This document shows positions 3,769 through 40,727 of a stretch of DNA of 64,000 nt, in pieces. Every line of letters starts with the position of its first letter. The stretch's first letter is position 1. The stretch is from Akkermansia muciniphila (GTDB lineage Bacteria > Verrucomicrobiota > Verrucomicrobiia > Limisphaerales > BJHT01): positions 1 through 64,000 of the forward strand of contig CAMAUZ010000003.1 of NCBI GenBank assembly GCA_945861535.1. The letters are read 5' to 3'. Made by a program: the position numbers and the translations under genes. Under the pieces are notes generated by a model. That model ran no database searches. It was not told the origin of the DNA and saw only the letters and a program-made list of their open reading frames with translations.

Positions 3769-3987
3769 ATGAACGAGATCATCTTTGAAGTGCGCGAGGA
3801 CGAGACGGACGGCGGCTATGTCGCCACGGCCCTCGGTCATGCCATTGCGACACAAGGGGACACGGTCGAAGAACTGCGCGCGATGGTCCGCGACGCGGTG
3901 CATTGCCATTTTGGCGATGGCGTGCCCGGCGCGATGCCGCAGATCATCCGGCTCCACTTTGTCCGCGACGAGGCGCTGGCGGTGTGA
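3769..3987 (+). CDS. hicB: HicB-like antitoxin, module 2
   Basis: 72 residues beginning MNEIIFEVREDETDGGYVA, with GHAIATQGDTVEELRAMVRD forming the HicB core. Proteins of this exact type are sometimes mis-named 2-oxoisovalerate dehydrogenase subunits in databases; the neighbour shows the real role. The end (GAMPQIIRLHFVRDEALAV) matches the tail type of module 3 (WPIRMHFAQDPVLAAA). The stop overlaps the GTG of hicA (3984-3987). Confidence 0.82.
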   Translation: MNEIIFEVREDETDGGYVATALGHAIATQGDTVEELRAMVRDAVHCHFGDGVPGAMPQIIRLHFVRDEALAV

Positions 3988-4229
3988 AAACCCCGCGCAA
4001 CATCAACGCCTCCGACCTCATCCGCGCCCTGCGCATTCTGGGCTACGAGCGCGTGCGGCAGGATGGGTCACACATCCGCCTGACCACCACCGTTGGAGGG
4101 ACACATCATGTCACGGTTCCCAATCATCGCCCGCTGAAGACGGGCACCTTGCTGGGAGGTGTCTTGAAGCCCGTGGCCGCGCACCACAAACTTACGGTCG
4201 AGGAATTGCTGGCCCAGCTCGATCTGTAG
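3984..4229 (+). CDS. hicA: HicA-like mRNA interferase toxin, module 2
   Basis: 81 residues from the GTG at 3984, chosen because it gives the GTGTGA overlap with hicB. ALRILGYERVRQDGSHIRL contains the Gly-Ser-His with catalytic His30; HHVTVPNHRPLKTGTLLGGVL is the usual C-terminal strand and helix. It acts as the toxin of module 2. A 300-nt stretch without a recognisable gene follows (4230-4530). Confidence 0.85.
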   Translation: MKTPRNINASDLIRALRILGYERVRQDGSHIRLTTTVGGTHHVTVPNHRPLKTGTLLGGVLKPVAAHHKLTVEELLAQLDL

Positions 4230-8321: not shown

Positions 8322-9545
8322 ATGAAACCCGGATTGCAGATCGGCCAGCAGGGCGAGTTGGTGTGGATCGTGGATCCGATCCATACCATCACGCTCGGCC
8401 TCGCGACGGCCACACAGGTCACCGTGTTCTCCACGCCGAGCATGATCATGCTTATGGAACGAGCCGCGCGCGAAGCCCTCCGCCCCTACCTCGAACCCGG
8501 CGAGGAAACCGTCGGCGTCGAAGTCAGTTGCGAGCATCTCGCGGGCGCGCCGCTCGGCGCGACCGTGCGCGGCGTGGCCACCATCACCGGCCTCGCGAAA
8601 CGCCGCGTTTCCTTCGACATCGCGGCCTATCACGGCGATCGCCTGCTCGGACGCGGACGCCACACCCGCGCGATCGCGCGAGTCGAACGCCTGCTCCAAA
8701 ATCTCCGCCAAATCGCCCCCAACCCCGGAGCCTCCATGAACATCCGCGCCAACTCCGGCGAACTCCCGCCGTTCGCCACACTCGCCGTCGCCGTCTCCGC
8801 CAAGGTCGCCACCGTCACCCTCAACCGCCCGAAGTCCCTCAACGCCGTGGACACGCAGATGACCACCGACCTCGAGCAGTTCGTCGCGTGGCTCACCGGC
8901 CATCCCGAGGACGTCCGCGTCGTGATCCTCACCGGCGCCGGCCCGGCCTTCTGCGCGGGTGACGATGTGAAGGAACTCGGCACCCTCGCGCTCGACGACG
9001 CGCGCGCGCTCAGTCTGCGCCAGGCCCAGCTTTACCTCGCCTTCGAGTCCCTGCCGCAGCCGCTCATCGCCGCGGTGAACGGCCCCGCGCTCGGCGCTGG
9101 TTGCGTCTGCGCCTACTCGTGCGATTTCCGTATCGCGTCGCACGCCGCCGCGTTTGGCATGCCCGAGATCAAGCTCGGCTGGACGCCCGGCTACGGCCTC
9201 GCGCAACTCACCGCCCTCATCGGCAAGGCCCGCGCGCTCGAACTCTGCCTCACCGGCCGCACGCTCACCGCGCGCGAGGCCCACGACTGGGGCCTCGTCA
9301 ACGAACTCGCCGCCGGTTCGCAACTCCTCGAACGCGCCCGCAAGCTCGCCGCGCAGCTCCTGCAAATGCCCGCTCTCGCCCTCCGCGAAACCAAACGCGT
9401 CCTCCACGCCGACGAAGGCCCGCAATCCAAAACCGCTCACCGCCTCGACACCGACGCCTACCTCCGCTGCCTCGAATCCCCCGACGCCCGCGAAGGCATC
9501 GCCGCCTTCAGCGACAAACGCGCGCCGCGTTTTCAAGGGCGGTGA
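8322..9545 (+). CDS. FlK-like thioesterase fused to an enoyl-CoA hydratase/isomerase
   Basis: 407 residues with two domains. Residues 1-130 are a hot-dog thioesterase of the fluoroacetyl-CoA thioesterase (FlK) type: Thr38 (STPSM), Glu46 (MERAAREAL) and His72 (CEHLAGAP) keep the spacing of the FlK triad Thr42/Glu50/His76. Residues about 145-405 are a crotonase: AFCAGDDVKEL and GPALGAGCVCAY form the oxyanion hole. The second hydratase glutamate is kept (GMPEIKLG), but the first, in GCE-type motifs, is Val here, so plain hydratase chemistry is doubtful. The fusion suggests that an acyl-CoA is rearranged and then released as free acid. It stands alone. Confidence 0.85.
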   Translation: MKPGLQIGQQGELVWIVDPIHTITLGLATATQVTVFSTPSMIMLMERAAREALRPYLEPGEETVGVEVSCEHLAGAPLGATVRGVATITGLAKRRVSFDIAAYHGDRLLGRGRHTRAIARVERLLQNLRQIAPNPGASMNIRANSGELPPFATLAVAVSAKVATVTLNRPKSLNAVDTQMTTDLEQFVAWLTGHPEDVRVVILTGAGPAFCAGDDVKELGTLALDDARALSLRQAQLYLAFESLPQPLIAAVNGPALGAGCVCAYSCDFRIASHAAAFGMPEIKLGWTPGYGLAQLTALIGKARALELCLTGRTLTAREAHDWGLVNELAAGSQLLERARKLAAQLLQMPALALRETKRVLHADEGPQSKTAHRLDTDAYLRCLESPDAREGIAAFSDKRAPRFQGR

Positions 9546-12719: not shown

Positions 12720-13148
12720 TCACACCGCCTGTCGTTGGGCCAGATATTCCTCGGGGGACATCACCGGCAGCCGACTCGCCGCATAGTCTGTCTTGTTGCG
12801 TGTGATGATTATCTGCACGCCGCCCTCCGACTGAGCCGAGAAATACTGGATGGCGTCCTCGAAATCGCCGAAGCCCGAGCCAAGGGCGGCTTGAATCTCT
12901 TTTTCGCCGACCGCGACGGTCTTGGTGATCCGCTTCAACTTGGCGAGCAAGGCCAGTGTCTCCGCGTGCGTGCGGCCATTGCGGCGCAGGTAATAAAGAT
13001 GGCTGAACGAAAGCGAGGACAGGCACGCCTCCACCTCCTGCACTTCCGCCAGACCCAGCAGGCGATGGGCGTGTTCCGCATAGGGTTGGCGGTCGGCCAG
13101 ATGGTCCAACGCCACATCCGTATCGAGGAACAGCTTATCCTTCGCCAT
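12720..13148 (-). CDS. PIN-domain ribonuclease toxin
   Basis: 142 residues with the PIN pattern: KLFLDTDVALDHLADR supplies the first acidic residue (Asp9), LAEVQEVEACLSSLSFSHL the second region, and GDFEDAIQYFSA the downstream acidic cluster; TRNKTDYAAS and VMSPEEYL are the usual end. VapC-type PIN proteins cleave specific RNAs. It overlaps the upstream antitoxin by 14 nt (13135-13148), so the order is antitoxin then toxin on the minus strand. Confidence 0.88.
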   Translation of the reverse strand: MAKDKLFLDTDVALDHLADRQPYAEHAHRLLGLAEVQEVEACLSSLSFSHLYYLRRNGRTHAETLALLAKLKRITKTVAVGEKEIQAALGSGFGDFEDAIQYFSAQSEGGVQIIITRNKTDYAASRLPVMSPEEYLAQRQAV

Positions 13149-13389
13149 ACTTCTTCCGCAGCTCTCCCACGATCAACTCACGGTAGTTCGTTTCCGGCGG
13201 GAGTCGGAGAGTGCCGCGCAATTCATCCGTGACGGGCGTCTGACCGGCCTGGCTGACGCGCCAGTTTTGAGCCATGACACCCAACTGCCGCTGCACGATC
13301 TCCGGCAACGTCATTTGATGCGCCCGCGCTTCCTGCTCGGCGAAATCCAAAACCTCGGCATCCAACTGCACAGTTAATGTGGCGATCAT
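13135..13389 (-). CDS. Antitoxin partner of the PIN toxin
   Basis: 84 residues from the ATG at 13389. This start is chosen because a -35/-10 pair sits directly before it and because the upstream in-frame sequence is a Pro-rich translation of that promoter. MIATLTVQLDAEVLDFAEQ followed by AHQMTLPEIVQRQL has the strand-helix-helix order of ribbon-helix-helix repressors; the acidic/basic tail LIVGELRKKYGEG would wrap the toxin. Confidence 0.75.
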   Translation of the reverse strand: MIATLTVQLDAEVLDFAEQEARAHQMTLPEIVQRQLGVMAQNWRVSQAGQTPVTDELRGTLRLPPETNYRELIVGELRKKYGEG

Positions 13390-13396
13390 AGGTGGA

Positions 13397-13425
13397 ATGT
13401 TAGGTGGCGTGCTAGGCGGCGTCAA
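13397..13425 (-). promoter_or_regulatory. Promoter of the PIN module, leaderless layout
   Basis: On the minus strand TTGACG (13425-13420), a 17-nt spacer and TAACAT (13402-13397) stand 7 nt before the ATG. The spacer (CCGCCTAGCACGCCACC) is nearly the same as the one before hicB module 3, so both may bind the same regulator or descend from the same promoter. Confidence 0.65.
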
Positions 13426-13593
13426 CGGCGCGGGCGGGAGTGGACGCGGTGCAGGCATAGCCGCACTCTCGGACACGCATCTCCGCCACTACCGGACAGG
13501 TGGTGTGTCAATTTCCGAATGGCAAAACAATTAGGACCGCGCCCTTTCAACCTGACGCGAGAGGAGATACCAGCCCTGTTCGAGCGAACTGAG

Positions 13594-31186: not shown

Positions 31187-31951
31187 ATGTTCCAGCAATA
31201 CGCCTCCGCCTACGACGCGCTCTACCAGGACAAGGACTACGAAGGCGAATGCGACTTCGTCCAGGCCGCCGCCGACCGCTACTTGGACCACCGCCCCGCC
31301 ACCATTCTCGACCTCGGCTGCGGCACCGGCGGCCACGCCATTCCTTTCGCCCAACGTGGTTTCCGCGTCACCGGCCTCGACCAGTCCGCCGCGATGATCG
31401 AGCGCGCCGAACGCAAGCGCGCGACGCTCAACGGCCACGCCGACTACGCGCGCTTCGAAGTGGGCGACGCCCGCCGCACCGACCTCGGCCACCGCTTTGA
31501 TTTGGTCACCTGCATGTTCGCGGTCCTGAGCTACCAGACCACGGATGCCGATGTGCTCGCGCTTTTCCAGAACGCCCGCCGCCACCTCGACACCGGCGGC
31601 CTCTTCGTCTGCGATTACTGGCACGGCCCGGGCGTCCTCACGCAGCGTCCCCTCACCCGCACCAAGACCGCCGCGACACCCACCGAGACCATCTCCCGCA
31701 CCTCCACCCCCACGCTCGACGAGGCCAATCACATCGTCAGCCTCGACATCGTCACCCGCCATTCGCGCCCCGGCCAACGCGGCGACGAGTCGCGTGAGCA
31801 GCACTGCGTGCGCTACTTTTTCCCCTCCGAGATCTCCCGCCTCCTCACCGCCGCCGGCCTGCGCCCGCTGCATTTCTGTGCGTTCCCGCAACTCGACCAG
31901 ACCCTCACCGACCACGACTGGAACGCCGCCGTCATCGCCCGCGCCAACTGA
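31187..31951 (+). CDS. Class I SAM-dependent methyltransferase
   Basis: 254 residues. ATILDLGCGTGGHAIPFAQR is the SAM-binding motif I, VTGLDQSAAMIERAERKR motif II region, FDLVTCMFAVLSYQTTDADV and ARRHLDTGGLFVCDYWHGPG the later motifs; VRYFFPSEISRLLTAAGLRP closes the domain. The N-terminus MFQQYASAYDALYQDKDY is typical of small-molecule or sugar N-methyltransferases of the DesVI/TylM1 type, which often follow an aminotransferase as here. Confidence 0.88.
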   Translation: MFQQYASAYDALYQDKDYEGECDFVQAAADRYLDHRPATILDLGCGTGGHAIPFAQRGFRVTGLDQSAAMIERAERKRATLNGHADYARFEVGDARRTDLGHRFDLVTCMFAVLSYQTTDADVLALFQNARRHLDTGGLFVCDYWHGPGVLTQRPLTRTKTAATPTETISRTSTPTLDEANHIVSLDIVTRHSRPGQRGDESREQHCVRYFFPSEISRLLTAAGLRPLHFCAFPQLDQTLTDHDWNAAVIARAN

Positions 31952-31961
31952 ACCACACCCC

Positions 31962-34900
31962 ATGAAAGTCCACATTGTCTGCTACGAAGATGTCCACGCT
32001 TGGATCCTCGGCAAGTTCGCCCTGAAGCTCCAGGAACACCTCCGCCCGCTCGGCGTCGCCGCCACCATTTCCAAGCAGCCCGACCCGCAGGCCGACATCA
32101 ATCACCACATTATTTACCACGACTACGACGGCCGGAAGACCACCACCGAGACCGTCATGGTCACGCACATCGACACCGACTGGAAACGCGAGCGCCTCCG
32201 CCAGCAACTCGTCAACGCTGCCATGGGCATCTGCTGCTCCGCCGAAAGCGTGGACGCCCTCGCCGCCGCCGGTCTGCCGCGCGAAAAACTCTGCTTCGTC
32301 AACCCCGGCCACGACGGCGAGATGCGCCCCCGCCGCACCGTCATCGGCATCACGAGCAAGGTCCAACCCAGCGGTTGCAAACGCGAAGGCATCCTCCTCG
32401 ACCTCGCCCGCTGCATTTCCCCGGACGAGTTTCAGTTCCGCATCATGGGCGCGGGCTGGGACGAGCACGTGAAGCAACTCCGCCTCGCCGGCTTCACCGT
32501 GGACCACTGGCAAGCCTTCGACCGCGCCGAGTATCTCAAGCTCATGCCGAGCCTCGATTACTACCTTTACCTCGGCCTCGACGAAGGCTCGATGGGCTAC
32601 ATGGACGCCCTCGCCGTCGGTGTGCAAACCATCGTCACGACGCAGGGTTTCCACCTCGACGCCCCCGGCGGCATCACCCACGGCTGGAGCGAACCCACCG
32701 AACTGTTCCGCATCTTCGAGAGCATCGCCCGCGAAAAACGCCTCCGTCAGCAAGCCGTCGCCAACTGGACCTGGCCCGAATACGCCCAGCGCCACTTCGC
32801 GCTCTGGCAATACCTGCTCGCGAAAAAAACCGGTGCCGCAGTCCCTGCCGCCCTCCGCGCCCCGCTCACCAAAATGGCCGTTCTCGTCCCCGTCGCGGCC
32901 GTCGCCGGAGCGCCGGCCGCCACCCCGGCCGCCACCCCGGCCGCGCCCGCCGCGCCCGCCGCGCCCCTGACGCAGGCCACCCGCAACGGCGTCACCTTCG
33001 CCCTCGATCTCACCGAGTTCATCGACCGCAGCCTGCACGACCACGGTTGCTTCGAGCCGGCCACCACCGCCGCCCTCGCGCGGCTCACGCGGCCCGGCAT
33101 GACCGTTCTGGACATTGGCGCGAACATCGGCGCGCACGCCCTCCATCTCGCGCAACACGTCGGTCCGGCCGGTCGTGTCCTCGCCATCGAGCCCATGAGC
33201 GGCGCGTTCCACAAGCTCCGCCGCAACGCCGAACTCAACCCGTCGCTCACCAACCTGGCGCTGCATCACCTGGCGCTGGGGGCCGAGAACGGCACGCTCC
33301 AGGCCGACTTCAACCACAGTTGGCCCGTGGATGGCAATTACCGCGACGTGACGCCCGAGCCGGTGCCCGTGCTTCGCCTGGATGACTTCCTCGCCGAGCA
33401 GGGCATCCCGCGCGTGGACCTCATCAAGCTGGATGTGGATGGCTACGAACACCAAATCCTCCGGGGCGCGGCGCGCACGCTCCACGAGTCCCGCCCGCTG
33501 CTCGTGATGGAACTGTGCAACTACACGCTGGAACGCGTGGGTGATTCCGTGGCCGCCATGCTCGATGACCTCGCCGCCGCCGGCTACCGCTTCCAGTTCG
33601 AGCACAATCTCCAGCCGGCCACGAAGGACGCGCTCCTTGCCGCCATTCCCGTCGGCAGCAGCATCAACATCATCGCCACCCCAACCCCGCTGGCGGACGC
33701 CGCGTCCCCGGACGTTGCCGAAACCGCCGCGCTTGAAGCCGAAATCACCGCCGCCCTCGCGCACAACCCCGCCGACCGGCCCGCGCTCACGGCGCTCCTC
33801 GCGCTGCGTCTCGACCAGTCCCGCTGGGCCGAGGCCGCCAAAGCCGCGTTCCAACTCCTCCAGCAAACGCCCGACGACGCCCCCATCCTCCAGGCCCTCG
33901 CGCATTGCTTCGAGCAGCTCGGCGAGCACGAAACCGCCGCCACCGTCCGCGAGCAGTTGGCCCAAACACCCGCCACCGGCCAGACCGCGCCGGGCGCGGC
34001 CCCGCCTTCACCCACGCCTTCGGACGACGCCAGCCGCGCCCCGCGCGTTCCGGTCCGGCCCCGCATTCTGATCCTCGCCGACGTGCCGAACTGGATCTTC
34101 GAGCGGCACGCCCGCACGCTCCAGACGCTGCTCAGCGACGAGTTCGACATCACGGTGGGCTTCCGTGGACTGGAGTTCAACGAGGACGCGTTCGATCTGA
34201 TTTATCCGCTCGAGTTCAATCTCGTGGAGCCGGCACGCATCCGCGATCCGCGCAAATACGTCACGGGCATCCGCTCGCACTGCGCCTGGCAGCCGCTCGG
34301 TTTCGCGAATGTGGTGCAAACGCTGCGCACGAAATTCCAGCGGGTTCACGCGGTGTCGCGCGAGTTGCAGGAAATCTTCCGGCGCGAGCTGCCGGCGGTG
34401 GAACTCCTCAGCCACGGCGTGGACACAGCGCATTTTGTTCCCCAGACGCGCGCCGATCAGTCAGGTCACGGCCGGCTGCGCCTCGGCTGGGCGGGCAACC
34501 GCCGCTCCGGTTCGCGCAAGGGCTTCGAGGACATCATCGAACCGCTGGGACGCCTGCCCGGCGTCGAGCTGGTTTTCTGCGGCTACAGCGACCGGTTGCT
34601 GACGGCGGCGGAAATGGTGGGGTTCTACAACTCGATCGACGCCTACGTCTGCGCCTCGGATTTTGAGGGCAACAACAACTCGCTGCTCGAGGCCGCGGCG
34701 ATGGGTCGCGCGATCATCACGACCGCCAACGGCACGGTGCCCGAGTATCTCCGGCATCAGGAGAGCGCCCTCATCGTGGCGCGGCAGGCGGACGCCTTTC
34801 GCGTGGCGGTGGAACAACTCCGTGACGATCCGGCCTTGCGCGTGCAGCTCGGCGCGGCGGCGGCGGCGGCGGTGAAGCCTGCCTTCGACTGGCGCGCGCA

Positions 34901-37900
34901 GGCCGAGCGGCATCGCGATTTCTTCCGTCGTTCGCTGGCGGTGGCCCGCGGGGAACCGGCTGGCGCGGGAATGAACGTGGCCATCGGCGATCCGCTGGCA
35001 CAAGCCGAGTCGAATGCGCGGGCGGCGCTCCAGCTCCACCCGGATGCGCCGGCGGCGTTGCGGTTGCTCGTGCAGGTGCTGGTGCAACGCGGCGACTGGC
35101 GCGAGTGCGCGCGGGCCTGCCAGCAGTTGCTGGCGCAGACGCCGAACGACACGGAAATCCTGCTGACCACGGCCAAGTGTTTTTACGAACTGGGAGACCT
35201 CGACGCGACGCGCCGTGCGCTCGACCGCGTGCTGTGCGTGGAGCCGGGCAACCCGCTGGCGCGGGCCAACCTCGCCGCGCTGGACCAGCGTCGCCAGGCG
35301 GAGACCGGCTTGACGGCCGGGCAGGAAGAACAGATCCGCGCCGGAATGGCGGCGCTGGAACGGGAAGATCTGCCGCTGGCGTTGCAACACTACGAAGCGG
35401 CGCTGGCCGGGTCACCCAGGCAGGCGGAATTGCAAAACATCGTCGCGCAGCTCCGGGCCGCGCTGGTGGTCGGCGACAGCGTTTCGGTACTCACGCCGGC
35501 TACGCCAGTGACGGAGTCTTCCGTGCGTCTGCACGCGCCCACGCCGCACGGCGGACCGTCGCGGGAACGCGAGGCGGGCTACTCGTTCTGTCTCATCACC
35601 AACGGCAAGAAACCGGCCAAGCTGGTCAACTCCATCGCCAGCATCCGCGCGCTGAACATGCCGGCTTACGAAATCCTCGTCGCCGGCGAAGTGCCGACGG
35701 GGCTGGGCGACGTGACCGTGGTGCCGCTGGTGGACGCGGCCCGCGGCGGGCGGCTCGGGGAGATGCGCAATGCGTTGGTGCGGCGCGCGCGCTTCGACCA
35801 CTGCGTGGTGGCGGACGACGACATGCTGTTCCACGACGACTACTACCGGGGCCTGCAACAATTCGGCGAAGATTACGACGTGCAATGTGTGCGACTGCTG
35901 AACCCCGACGGCACACGGTTCTGGGACTGGGCCACCTGCGGCGGGCCGCGCGGGCACACGTTGCTCGAGTACACCGAGGATGATGCGTTCGTGTATCCCA
36001 CCGGCGGCCTGTGCCTGCTGAAGACCGAACTTATCGACCGCGTGGGCTGGGACGATGCGCGGGGATTTTATCAGGGCGAGGATTTGGATTTTGCGGAGCG
36101 GCTGCGCACGGCCGGCGCCCGGGTGCGGTTCAATCGCCACAGCACCGTCACGCACGATGACCCGCGCTACACCCAGATTGGGACGCGGATCATGCGGATG
36201 GATCATCTGCTCATCAATGCGCGGGCCAATTACACGAACCGGCAGACCGCGGTGGCGCGGCAGTTTCTCGGGCACGCCCGGCGCTTGAGCGTGCTGGGGA
36301 ACGATCCGGCGGGCTTGGAAGAAGTGGTCCGGCTGGCACGGGAATTCGGCGATGGCGAGTGGGCCATGCAGGCCGTGCTGGGCCGTGCCACGGCTCCGGC
36401 GTTACGACTGCCGGTGCGCTGGCTCGGGCCGATTTTCAATCCCAGCGGCTATGCCAGCGAGGCGATCAATTTCCTCATCCCGCTGGTCGAGCGCTGCAAT
36501 GTCGGGCTGTTTCACCACACGAATCTGTACTCGGAAAAATTTGTCGCGGGGCTGCCGCCGGCGGAACGCCACAGCCTCTTCGCCGCGCGTGACCGTTTCG
36601 CCTCGCTGGAGAAGGGCATCGTGATCTCGCACAATCCTGCGCACGGATTTGCCCGGTTGCCGGACGGGCAGTGGCATATCGGGCGCTCGATGTTCGAGAC
36701 CGATCGCATCGCGCCCGAGTGGGTGCAGGCCTGCAACCGGATGGACGAGGTCTGGGTTCCGAGCCGGTTCAATGTCGAGACGTTCGCACGCAGCGGCGTC
36801 GAGCCGACGAAGCTGCGGGTGATGCCGGGCGCGGTGGATTCCAATGAATTTGATCCGGCCCGCCACCCGGCGCTGCCCCTGCCCAACCGCGCCGCGTTTA
36901 ATTTCCTCGCCGTCTTCGAGTGGTCCTCGCGCAAGGGCTGGGACGTGCTGCTGGCGGCCTATTTGCGCGAGTTTTCCGCGGCGGACGACGTGTGCCTTTA
37001 TCTGCGGACGTATCTGTTCGCGCAGCCGGATGGCGACCCGCGCGAGGCCATCTGGCAGCGCATCCGCGCCCACGCGGCGACGCTCGGGCTGGAGGACAAG
37101 GCCTGGCCACGCATCGAGATTCTGGCCGAACAGGTCGCGACGGAGGATCTGCCGCGACTGTACAAGGCCGCCGACTGCCTCGTCGCGCCGAGCCGGGGCG
37201 AAGGCTGGGGCCGGCCGCAGCACGAGGCGATGTTGATGGAACTGCCGGTCATCGCCACGAACTGGGGCGGCAACACGGAATTCATGAACGCCGAGAATTC
37301 CTACCTGCTCGACTACGAACTCGTGGACGTGACCGATGTGGAAATCGAGCTGTGGCATTACCACGGACATCGCTGGGCGAATCCCTGCGAGCGGCATCTG
37401 CGCCAACTGCTGCGCCACGTCCAGCAACAGCCCGCCGCCGCCAAGGCCGTCGGCAAAATCGCCCGCGCCCACATGGTGCAGCAGTTCAGTCGCGAGGCGG
37501 TTGCCGATTTGGTCGTGCAGCGACTGGCGGAGATTGAAAGCCAACTGGGCCGGCCGACTTTGCCCCCGGCCCCCACGCGGCTCGTCGAGGTGACGCCGGA
37601 ATTTCCCGAGCGGAAGGCGCAGACGCTGTGCGTGGACTGGGAAGGATCGTTTCTGGATTACGGGAGTTTGTCGCATGTGAACCGCGAGTTCACGCGCCAG
37701 CTCGGGCGGCAGCCGCGGTTGCAGGTGAATTGTGTCAGCGCGGCCACCGACCCGGGCGGAGTGATGCCGGCGGGATTGCAGGAGGTGGCGCGGCGGCTGC
37801 GCACCAAGCCTTCGCCGAAGGTGCAGATCACCGTGCGGCACGCGTGGCCGCCGGACTGGACGCGCCCGGCGCAGGGCGCGTGGGTGGCGATGCAGCCGTG

Positions 37901-40727
37901 GGAATTCGGCACGCTGCCCGAGGCCTGGGTCAAGGGGGCCGAGAAGGCGGACGAAATCTGGGTGTACTCGGAATATGTGCGGCGCGTGTATGTGAATTCG
38001 GGAGTCGATCCGGCGAAGGTGAAGATCGTGCCGCTGGGCATCGATCCGCAGCGGTTCCAGCCGGGCGCACCGCCGATGCAGCTGGCGACGAACAAGGCGT
38101 TCAAGTTCCTGTTCGTGGGCGGGACCATCGGGCGCAAGGGCGCGGATGTGCTGCTCGAGGCGTATCTCCACAGCTTCATGGCGGCGGATGATGTCTGCCT
38201 GGTGATCAAGGATTTTGGCGGGAACAGCGTGTATGCGGGGCAGACCCTGGAGCCGCGGATTCGCGCGGCGCAGGCGCGGCCGAACGCGCCGGAGATTTTG
38301 TATTTGAACCAGGAGCTTCCGCCCGAGGAACTGCCTGGCTTGTACACGGCGTGCCAGTGCCTGGTGCATCCGTATCGCGGCGAGGGCTTTGGTTTGCCGG
38401 TGCTCGAGGCGATGGCGTGCGGGCTGCCGGTGGTGGTGACGGCCGGCGGTGCGACGGATGATTTTGCGGATGATACGCACGCGTATCGGCTGCCGGCGGA
38501 GCGGCGCAGCATCGGTGGCGAAGTGAGCGGGATGAAGCTGGTCCATACGGGCTGGCTGCTCGAACCGTCGCTGCCGGCGCTGGCGGAGCGGCTGCGCTGG
38601 GTGGCGGCGAATCGCGCCGAGGCGGCGGCGAAAGGCCGGCTCGCGGGCGAAATGGTGCGGCGCGACTGGACGTGGGAACGCTCGGCGCGCGTGGCGGCGC
38701 AGCGGTTGCAGAATCTGGCGGCGCGCGTGCAGAACGAAATGGAGGCCGCGCGGGCGCGGCGGGCGCGGCGCGGCAAGCCCCTGGTGCTGCCGGCGACGGC
38801 CCGCCTCGGGCAGCTCGGCGCGGCGACGGAGTTGCTGCGGAAGAATCAGTTGGCGGCGGCGTGGACGGCGGCGGTCGAGGCGATCACGGCGCGGCCGTTT
38901 CATCCCGAGGGCTGGCTGTTGCTGGCGGAGATCGCGCACCTCGCGTTGCAGCCGGAGCTGTCGCGGCAATGCGTGGAGCACGCGCGGGCGCTGACGCCCG
39001 AGTGGAAACGGGCGCAGCAATTCACCAAGAACGGAGCGGCAAAAGGGCGGGCGCGGTTGGAACTGCCGGTGTTGCCCGAGGCGTTGACGCGCGGGCTGGC
39101 ACAGCCGCGGCTGACGGTGTGTGTGATCGCACGCAACGAGGAGCGGTTCCTGGCGAAGTGCCTCGGCGCGGTGCGCGGGCTGGCGCAGCAGATCGTGGTG
39201 GTGGACACCGGCTCGACGGATCGCACGGTGGAAATCGCCCGTGAACACGGGGCGGAAGTGCATTCGTTCACGTGGACGGAGGACTTCTCGGCGGCGCGCA
39301 ACGCGGCGCTGGAGCACGCGCGCGGCGAGTGGATTTTGTTCATCGACGCGGACGAGGAGCTGACGCCGCAGGGGCGCGAGACGCTGGTACAGGAACTGCA
39401 CGCGGCGAACGTGATGGCGTTTCGCTTTCCGCTGATCGACGTGGGGCGGGAAAACGAGGGCCGCAGTTTTGTGCCGCGGTTGTTCCGCAATGCGCCGGGG
39501 TTGTTCTATGTCGGACGTGTGCACGAGCAGGTGTTCAGCAGCGTGGTGGTGCGGTGCGAGGAATGGGGCACGACGGTGGAACTCGGTAAGACGGAGCTGC
39601 TGCATTACGGCTACTCGGTCGAGATGGTGCGCGGCCGGAACAAGCTGGCGCGCAATCTGCACCTGCTGCTGCGCGCGATCGAGGAGATGCCGAACGAGCC
39701 AAATCTCCTGATGAATCTCGGCCTCGAGCTGGCGCGCGGCGGGCACCTGAACGCGGGGCTGGATTACTACTACGAGGCGCACGAGCTGATGTCCGAGCTG
39801 CCGCCGCAGAATGTGCCGCCGGAGTTGCGCGAGGCCTTGCTCACGCAGATGGCGACGCGGTTGACGGGCGCGGGCGGTTTCGCCGAAGTGGTGCGGGTGT
39901 TGCGTTCACCGCTGGCCCGCACGCCGGGGCTGACGGCGAGCCTGCATTTTTTCCTTGGCCTCGCGCTGGTGGGGTTGGGCCGGCTGGAGGAAGCGGCGGT
40001 CGAGTTCCGCGAGTGCATCGCCAAACGGGACCGGCAGGCGCTGACGCCGATCAATCCGGACATCCTCGGAGCCGGGCCGTATCAGTGCCTGGCAACGTGC
40101 CTGGTGGGGCTGGAACGCACGGAGGAGGCGCGCGCGGCGTTCGTGGCGGCGCTCGGGCAGGGGTCGAAGCTGGGGCCGGTGCGCTTGGATTACGCGCGGT
40201 TTCTGGTCGCGCAGGGCGAGCCGGTCCCGGCGCTCGAGGTGCTGCACACGCAGGTGAACGAGCGGCCCGCGGATGCGGCCGCGTGGCAGTTGGGCGGCGA
40301 GATTGCGCTGGGGCGGGCGGAGTTTCTCGAGTTCGCGCTGGACTGGACGGGCGAGGCGCGACGGGCGCTGCCCGAGAACGCGGCGCTGCTGGCGCAACGG
40401 GCGGAGGCGCTGATGTTCAATGGTGAACTGGAGGCCGCGCTGCCGTTGTGGCGGCAGGTGCAGGAGCGGCGGCAGCCGGGGCCGCTCGCGGCGCTGGTGT
40501 TGTGCGAGGTGCTCACGGGCGACCGGCAGGTGCGGCTCGGCGGGGGCGAAGAGGCGGCGGTGAGCCGGGAGTTTTTGCAGTGGTTCCGGCGGCTGGTGGA
40601 ACGCGGAGCGGAGGGACTGGTGCGGCGGTTGCAGCAGCACTTGCGCGCCGTGGCCGAGGTGCTGCCCGGCGCGGCGGGAGTGCTGGACGGTGTGCTGGCG
40701 CAGGTGGAGCAGCCGGTGGCGGCGTGA
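31962..40727 (+). CDS. Giant multi-domain glycosyltransferase/methyltransferase with TPR repeats
   Basis: 2,921 residues from the ATG at 31962. Domains in order: glycosyltransferase about 1-290; FkbM-type methyltransferase about 335-560 (VLDIGANIGAHALHLAQHVG, DLIKLDVDGYEHQILRGA); TPR about 590-670; glycosyltransferase about 695-1000 (ILILADVPNWIFERHARTL, CASDFEGNNNSLLEAAAMG); TPR about 1010-1190; GT-A fold about 1205-1410 (CVVADDDMLFHDDYY); GT4 about 1483-1870 (RWLGPIFNPSGYASEA); GT4 about 1884-2260 (HPYRGEGFGLPVLEAMACG); TPR; GT2 about 2383-2620 (TVCVIARNEERF, VVDTGSTDRTVEIA, DADEE); C-terminal TPR. It lacks a signal peptide and probably builds a glycan in the cytoplasm, perhaps on flagellin. 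Third-position usage changes from C-rich to G-rich along the gene. Confidence 0.9.
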   Translation: MKVHIVCYEDVHAWILGKFALKLQEHLRPLGVAATISKQPDPQADINHHIIYHDYDGRKTTTETVMVTHIDTDWKRERLRQQLVNAAMGICCSAESVDALAAAGLPREKLCFVNPGHDGEMRPRRTVIGITSKVQPSGCKREGILLDLARCISPDEFQFRIMGAGWDEHVKQLRLAGFTVDHWQAFDRAEYLKLMPSLDYYLYLGLDEGSMGYMDALAVGVQTIVTTQGFHLDAPGGITHGWSEPTELFRIFESIAREKRLRQQAVANWTWPEYAQRHFALWQYLLAKKTGAAVPAALRAPLTKMAVLVPVAAVAGAPAATPAATPAAPAAPAAPLTQATRNGVTFALDLTEFIDRSLHDHGCFEPATTAALARLTRPGMTVLDIGANIGAHALHLAQHVGPAGRVLAIEPMSGAFHKLRRNAELNPSLTNLALHHLALGAENGTLQADFNHSWPVDGNYRDVTPEPVPVLRLDDFLAEQGIPRVDLIKLDVDGYEHQILRGAARTLHESRPLLVMELCNYTLERVGDSVAAMLDDLAAAGYRFQFEHNLQPATKDALLAAIPVGSSINIIATPTPLADAASPDVAETAALEAEITAALAHNPADRPALTALLALRLDQSRWAEAAKAAFQLLQQTPDDAPILQALAHCFEQLGEHETAATVREQLAQTPATGQTAPGAAPPSPTPSDDASRAPRVPVRPRILILADVPNWIFERHARTLQTLLSDEFDITVGFRGLEFNEDAFDLIYPLEFNLVEPARIRDPRKYVTGIRSHCAWQPLGFANVVQTLRTKFQRVHAVSRELQEIFRRELPAVELLSHGVDTAHFVPQTRADQSGHGRLRLGWAGNRRSGSRKGFEDIIEPLGRLPGVELVFCGYSDRLLTAAEMVGFYNSIDAYVCASDFEGNNNSLLEAAAMGRAIITTANGTVPEYLRHQESALIVARQADAFRVAVEQLRDDPALRVQLGAAAAAAVKPAFDWRAQAERHRDFFRRSLAVARGEPAGAGMNVAIGDPLAQAESNARAALQLHPDAPAALRLLVQVLVQRGDWRECARACQQLLAQTPNDTEILLTTAKCFYELGDLDATRRALDRVLCVEPGNPLARANLAALDQRRQAETGLTAGQEEQIRAGMAALEREDLPLALQHYEAALAGSPRQAELQNIVAQLRAALVVGDSVSVLTPATPVTESSVRLHAPTPHGGPSREREAGYSFCLITNGKKPAKLVNSIASIRALNMPAYEILVAGEVPTGLGDVTVVPLVDAARGGRLGEMRNALVRRARFDHCVVADDDMLFHDDYYRGLQQFGEDYDVQCVRLLNPDGTRFWDWATCGGPRGHTLLEYTEDDAFVYPTGGLCLLKTELIDRVGWDDARGFYQGEDLDFAERLRTAGARVRFNRHSTVTHDDPRYTQIGTRIMRMDHLLINARANYTNRQTAVARQFLGHARRLSVLGNDPAGLEEVVRLAREFGDGEWAMQAVLGRATAPALRLPVRWLGPIFNPSGYASEAINFLIPLVERCNVGLFHHTNLYSEKFVAGLPPAERHSLFAARDRFASLEKGIVISHNPAHGFARLPDGQWHIGRSMFETDRIAPEWVQACNRMDEVWVPSRFNVETFARSGVEPTKLRVMPGAVDSNEFDPARHPALPLPNRAAFNFLAVFEWSSRKGWDVLLAAYLREFSAADDVCLYLRTYLFAQPDGDPREAIWQRIRAHAATLGLEDKAWPRIEILAEQVATEDLPRLYKAADCLVAPSRGEGWGRPQHEAMLMELPVIATNWGGNTEFMNAENSYLLDYELVDVTDVEIELWHYHGHRWANPCERHLRQLLRHVQQQPAAAKAVGKIARAHMVQQFSREAVADLVVQRLAEIESQLGRPTLPPAPTRLVEVTPEFPERKAQTLCVDWEGSFLDYGSLSHVNREFTRQLGRQPRLQVNCVSAATDPGGVMPAGLQEVARRLRTKPSPKVQITVRHAWPPDWTRPAQGAWVAMQPWEFGTLPEAWVKGAEKADEIWVYSEYVRRVYVNSGVDPAKVKIVPLGIDPQRFQPGAPPMQLATNKAFKFLFVGGTIGRKGADVLLEAYLHSFMAADDVCLVIKDFGGNSVYAGQTLEPRIRAAQARPNAPEILYLNQELPPEELPGLYTACQCLVHPYRGEGFGLPVLEAMACGLPVVVTAGGATDDFADDTHAYRLPAERRSIGGEVSGMKLVHTGWLLEPSLPALAERLRWVAANRAEAAAKGRLAGEMVRRDWTWERSARVAAQRLQNLAARVQNEMEAARARRARRGKPLVLPATARLGQLGAATELLRKNQLAAAWTAAVEAITARPFHPEGWLLLAEIAHLALQPELSRQCVEHARALTPEWKRAQQFTKNGAAKGRARLELPVLPEALTRGLAQPRLTVCVIARNEERFLAKCLGAVRGLAQQIVVVDTGSTDRTVEIAREHGAEVHSFTWTEDFSAARNAALEHARGEWILFIDADEELTPQGRETLVQELHAANVMAFRFPLIDVGRENEGRSFVPRLFRNAPGLFYVGRVHEQVFSSVVVRCEEWGTTVELGKTELLHYGYSVEMVRGRNKLARNLHLLLRAIEEMPNEPNLLMNLGLELARGGHLNAGLDYYYEAHELMSELPPQNVPPELREALLTQMATRLTGAGGFAEVVRVLRSPLARTPGLTASLHFFLGLALVGLGRLEEAAVEFRECIAKRDRQALTPINPDILGAGPYQCLATCLVGLERTEEARAAFVAALGQGSKLGPVRLDYARFLVAQGEPVPALEVLHTQVNERPADAAAWQLGGEIALGRAEFLEFALDWTGEARRALPENAALLAQRAEALMFNGELEAALPLWRQVQERRQPGPLAALVLCEVLTGDRQVRLGGGEEAAVSREFLQWFRRLVERGAEGLVRRLQQHLRAVAEVLPGAAGVLDGVLAQVEQPVAA

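Follow-up and report, generated by a model that had tools for sequence, protein, structure and literature searches.

A conserved fusion of an FlK-type thioesterase with a single-glutamate crotonase in planctomycetes and verrucomicrobia

Described relatives of the two halves

The protein described here joins two domains that are each familiar from other enzymes. Its N-terminal half resembles FlK of Streptomyces cattleya, with which it shares the hotdog domain, the Thr-Glu-His triad and the same spacing of the triad (8 and 26 residues); unlike FlK, it lacks the counterparts of Phe33 and Phe36, which form the gate of the fluoroacetyl-CoA-specific enzyme (the corresponding loop is four residues shorter), and it is joined to a crotonase. 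For the C-terminal half, the comparison centers on two catalytic glutamates, Glu144 and Glu164 in hydratase numbering: hydration normally requires both. Crotonases that retain a single glutamate are typically isomerases (PMC4498308). The fusion is like the Δ3,Δ2-enoyl-CoA isomerases and PaaG in that it has the crotonase fold with only one of the two glutamates, but it differs from them in being nearest in sequence to hydratases and in carrying a thioesterase domain. Its best sequence and fold matches are two-glutamate enzymes (e.g., the 3-hydroxypropionyl-CoA dehydratase 5zai, EchA8 and LiuC); unlike these, the window protein has Val at the Glu144 position, and no member of the family has Glu there.

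Two described systems bring hydrolysis and crotonase chemistry together. The crotonase DmdD catalyses both hydration and hydrolysis of methylthioacryloyl-CoA (PMC3660561); as proposed for the fusion, it combines hydrolysis and crotonase chemistry in one enzyme, but it does so in one active site with both glutamates, whereas hydrolysis by the fusion would be assigned to the separate hotdog domain. In Escherichia coli, separate thioesterases and β-oxidation clear minor unsaturated acyl-CoAs, with TesB and FadM helping beside crotonase-type enzymes (PMC9329746); unlike the fusion, these are separate proteins that act on longer chains and belong to different thioesterase families. By analogy, the E. 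coli arrangement may be regarded as a precedent for a logic in which an acyl-CoA is isomerised and hydrolysed.

Domain layout and active sites

The fusion gene occupies positions 8322–9545 of the window, that is, of the whole 64,000-nucleotide stretch of DNA that was analysed; it lies on the forward strand, as do all of its features given below, and encodes 407 amino acids from an ATG start without an internal stop. It matches its own genome at 100% identity. An FlK-family hotdog thioesterase domain (approximately residues 1–131; 8322–8716), delimited by Pfam family PF22636, phmmer and the structural model, is followed by a variable linker (residues 132–150; 8715–8771), recognized by low pLDDT and poor conservation, and by a crotonase domain (residues 159–406; 8796–9539), delimited by PF00378 and Foldseek. 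The Pfam matches over this open reading frame, to PF22636 (FlK) at residues 32–120 (E=1.3e-27, 96.4 bits versus a cut-off of 27) and to PF00378 (ECH_1) at residues 159–406 (E=6.1e-56, 190 bits versus a cut-off of 27), confirm the order of an FlK-type thioesterase followed by a crotonase that had been proposed in a sequence-only reading. In the AlphaFold2 model (mean pLDDT 90.4) both domains are confident, with values mostly near 90 in the thioesterase domain; the linker is flexible or disordered (pLDDT <50 at residues 132–138), and its sequence is little conserved among orthologues.

FlK is the nearest solved structure to the N-terminal half, and the phmmer alignment with its PDB entries 3p3f and 3kv7 spans residues 1–133 (E~4e-17). 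Thr38 (8433–8435), Glu46 (8457–8459) and His72 (8535–8537) fall on FlK Thr42, Glu50 and His76, respectively, and each is invariant in all 46 full-length fusions; thus, the 8- and 26-residue spacing that had first drawn attention to these residues reflects homology and is not a coincidence. Thioesterase chemistry of the N-terminal half is likely. Because FlK is also its closest solved structure, and triad and spacing are the same, the fusion might be an enzyme of resistance to fluoroacetyl-CoA or another α-halo-acyl-CoA. However, the triad is also present in all ten stand-alone FlK-like proteins from genomes of the window's order, so it marks the FlK family and not fluoroacetyl-CoA specificity; in addition, FlK Phe33 aligns with a gap and FlK Phe36 with Gln32 of the window protein, a position at which Arg is most frequent across the 46 aligned fusions. 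With the gate residues absent and the triad family-wide, fluoroacetyl-CoA is an unlikely substrate, and we regard a resistance function as very improbable.

In the C-terminal half, GAGCV stands in place of the hydratase motif GGGxE, which puts Val262 (9105–9107) at the site of the first glutamate; the second, Glu282 (9165–9167), is retained in MPEIKLG at the Glu164 position. The replacement had been noticed in the window protein and proves to be a property of the whole family: in the full-length alignment, position 262 is Val in 42 sequences, Met in two, Thr in one and Ile in one, with Glu in 0 of 46, whereas Glu282 is invariant (46/46). The window protein therefore lacks the glutamate pair that defines enoyl-CoA hydratase (crotonase sensu stricto) and has, in Glu282, the single glutamate of the enoyl-CoA isomerase type. 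Foldseek confirms the fold of the crotonase half, which aligns with 3pea (rmsd 1.5, TM 0.95 by target length, E=1.5e-25) and with human peroxisomal ECI (2f6q; TM 0.88 by target length); of the 60 best solved chains hit by the profile of the family, none extends over the thioesterase half too. Overall, the sequence of the crotonase half is closest to ordinary two-glutamate hydratases and not to isomerases, so the assignment of an isomerase-type reaction derives from the active site and not from subfamily membership. The loss of one glutamate is not by itself proof of isomerase activity; it is nevertheless reasonable to infer an isomerase-type reaction for this half.

The alignments show an intact FlK-family Thr-Glu-His site together with a crotonase site that has the Glu164-type acid/base only. 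The best explanation, to which we give a probability of about one half, is a bifunctional acyl-CoA enzyme of the PVC group, shared by planctomycetes and verrucomicrobia, that arose by one fusion event and in which an isomerase-type crotonase is tethered to a thioesterase. A short acyl-CoA would be held in the crotonase oxyanion hole, where Glu282 would shift a proton beside the thioester carbonyl; the reaction would be a Δ3/Δ2-type isomerisation or a similar α/γ-proton shift. Hydration, for which both glutamates are normally needed, is not proposed. The tethered hotdog domain would then hydrolyse the product, or an unproductive CoA ester, to the free acid and CoA. As single-glutamate crotonases are typically isomerases (PMC4498308), the earlier suggestion that the pair would isomerise an acyl-CoA and then hydrolyse it still seems the most natural reading.

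The fusion family and a possible second start

A scan of genome contigs yielded 80 loci, of which 45 encode a full-length fusion (~400 amino acids) with the same layout, besides the one in the window; these 45 orthologues and the window protein constitute the 46-sequence alignment. The other loci include several pieces cut at contig ends. One orthologue (L045, 2249–3463) has a reading frame that is broken after 148 codons, either by decay or by sequencing error. The orthologues are 42–66% identical to the window protein, and the carriers are mostly metagenome-assembled genomes of Planctomycetota (Pirellula, Schlesneria and Phycisphaerales) and Verrucomicrobiota, with two labelled Acidobacteria and a few given other labels. 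The occurrence is sparse: a search of 58 genomes of the window's order found the fusion in three, and it is present in three of the 119 genomes in the order of another carrier (G069). The statement in the sequence-only reading that no characterised enzyme is known to have this fusion stands in part: our literature search, with most subscription journals outside its scope, found no paper describing a thioesterase–crotonase fusion, but the architecture is not unique, being that of a conserved family of 46 full-length members. It is a new architecture of known domains, and the fusion family is uncharacterised.

In a tree of the FlK halves, the fusions form one clade against their stand-alone relatives (support 100/100); in a tree of the crotonase halves, they lie on one side of one split (weak support, 67). 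Both trees are consistent with one fusion event. The junction contains an in-frame ATG preceded by a Shine-Dalgarno-like sequence, as could also be expected if an assembly error or frameshift had joined two neighbouring genes. However, the same junction is found in 46 full-length orthologues, and the copy in a genome of the same genus, recovered as two contig-end pieces, matches the window protein at 93 and 97% identity; an artefact can be discounted for practical purposes.

The ATG itself (Met139; 8736–8738), located at the domain junction where the crotonase half starts, is preceded by a Shine-Dalgarno-like GGAG. Met is found in this column in 29 of 46 sequences, versus 21 of 1604 other linker cells. 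Pairing of the 14 upstream bases with the anti-Shine-Dalgarno sequence averages −5.5 kcal/mol at the Met139 column, compared with −1.8 before 441 other internal ATGs and −2.1 at the annotated starts, and at least four bases match at 71% of the Met139 positions versus 16% of control positions. Much of this likeness comes from the Glu/Gly-rich linker: synonymous-codon shuffles are as good in energy in 22 of 300 cases for a non-redundant set and in 64 of 300 for all sequences, leaving only a modest excess. A second translation start at Met139 that would give a free crotonase is plausible, with moderate support.

Gene neighbourhoods and candidate pathways

The window fusion gene stands alone, that is, the upstream gene (hisF) and the downstream gene (ceramidase-like), both named by eye, are on the opposite strand. 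Elsewhere in the window, by-eye inspection identified a small PIN-like protein with an overlapping short gene before it, which together are toxin-antitoxin-like (12720–13476, reverse strand), and a short HicA-type toxin-like protein (3903–4229, forward strand). The window also contains a very long open reading frame of 3060 amino acids (31545–40724, forward strand), and a short motif, SASSRRRL, is repeated in the translations of several predicted open reading frames (at ~6110, 7120, 14220 and 44410), which suggests a dispersed DNA repeat.

Across the fusion loci no shared operon was found; the neighbours are idiosyncratic. In eight loci (L043, L053, L058, L059, L060, L075, L078 and L082) a protein of ~1650–1700 amino acids is encoded 19–78 bp upstream of the fusion; in L053 it contains GDSL lipase, DUF7133, HEAT, PA14, cupredoxin and cytochrome c domains (Pfam), and this DUF7133/PA14/cupredoxin protein is limited to one Pirellula-type group. 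The widely varying gene context leaves the pathway unfixed, and this counts against the bifunctional isomerase–thioesterase as we have described it. Variable neighbourhoods would suit a house-cleaning enzyme that isomerises and hydrolyses dead-end or toxic unsaturated short acyl-CoAs outside any fixed pathway, much as E. coli uses separate thioesterases (PMC9329746), and so would the wide, if sparse, occurrence (e.g., the 3/119 genomes above). The same sparseness is unlike a housekeeping repair enzyme, and the L-rhamnose loci of two lineages, described next, also argue against this role; we consider it possible but doubtful.

Genes for L-rhamnose are the sole recurring neighbour theme, and they recur in two separate lineages. 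In genome G072 (locus L046, 1–6835) genes for an aldehyde dehydrogenase and then a class II aldolase precede the fusion, and those for RhaA and then an MFS transporter follow it, the gaps flanking the fusion gene being 11 and 6 bp. RhaT adjoins the fusion in L042 and L056 (17–94 bp, convergent), and a RhaT of a different type is located 70–100 bp upstream of it in L063 and L070, the latter with an α-L-rhamnosidase downstream, on the other side of the fusion. The two groups of rhamnose loci are separate clades in the trees. Of the 49 carrier genomes, only six have RhaT, and in four of these six it adjoins the fusion; the association was recognized post hoc, yet it is hard to get by chance. It is not a general rule because most carriers lack such neighbours, including the window genome, in which both RhaA and RhaT are absent. 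In the two rhamnose lineages, the best substrate lead is a short acyl-CoA derived from the breakdown of 6-deoxy sugars.

A more specific proposal follows from the G072 locus. The start of its contig overlaps the end of the microcompartment contig of the same genome (L115, 17790–18612) by 823 bp at 94% identity, the overlapping gene being the first gene of L046, which encodes a microcompartment-type aldehyde dehydrogenase; the dehydrogenase and aldolase of L046 are 80% and 67% identical, respectively, to those of the microcompartment locus of the window genome. That locus lies on another contig (G000:C108, L114) and contains BMC shell genes, an acetate-kinase-like gene, an aldehyde dehydrogenase and a class II aldolase. 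The published pathway of this microcompartment converts L-lactaldehyde to lactyl-CoA (PMC8857213). With L-lactaldehyde supplied by the breakdown of L-rhamnose or L-fucose, the fusion could hydrolyse lactoyl-CoA (or a derived C3 acyl-CoA) while the crotonase isomerises or epimerises the CoA ester; lactoyl would be the α-hydroxy analogue of the α-fluoro substrate of FlK. This pathway is favoured by the position of the G072 fusion, which has the class II aldolase on one side and RhaA on the other and lies downstream of that dehydrogenase, and by the RhaT neighbours in the second lineage. However, only five of ~50 loci show such neighbours, the window genome has neither RhaA nor RhaT, and neither domain has a known lactoyl-CoA activity. 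Microcompartment genes are present in 45 of 49 carriers, versus 39 of 55 background genomes in the window's order and 102 of 119 in that of G069; because relatives that lack the fusion have them about as often, their presence in carriers is uninformative, and we dropped the co-occurrence as a functional clue. On these grounds a role in lactoyl-CoA metabolism is rather unlikely. An extension of it that we would put forward only as speculation, and consider less likely still, has two products: a free crotonase from Met139 would be made beside the fusion, giving mixed crotonase oligomers with a reduced number of thioesterase domains, and in lineages that degrade deoxy sugars this complex would isomerise or epimerise, and hydrolyse, the C3 acyl-CoA from L-lactaldehyde.

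Weak matches to o-succinylbenzoate synthase among the neighbours prompted a different idea, that is, a DHNA-CoA synthase (MenB) joined to its own thioesterase (MenI) in menaquinone synthesis. MenB belongs to the crotonases and the thioesterases for DHNA-CoA to the hotdog proteins, and canonical MenB is missing in 35 of 38 carrier genomes, as it would be if the fusion replaced it. MenD, however, is present in exactly the three carriers that have canonical MenB and is absent from the other 35 (and from the window genome); with 35 carriers lacking the pathway and three already owning MenB, there is no gap for the fusion to fill. Moreover, the window fusion scores 116.1 bits against the MenB model (TIGR01929), versus a cut-off of 342.7, and two of the o-succinylbenzoate-synthase-like neighbours score best as DgcA-like racemases/epimerases. 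The MenB/DHNA-CoA thioesterase role was rejected on the co-occurrence of MenB and MenD and on these racemase/epimerase scores, and we find it scarcely credible.

For the family, the strict conservation of all the expected catalytic residues makes the fusion a clear target for assay, and some fifty genes that single-domain models would call only 'enoyl-CoA hydratase' can now be annotated as members. The rhamnose neighbours in two lineages provide a concrete first guess at a pathway.
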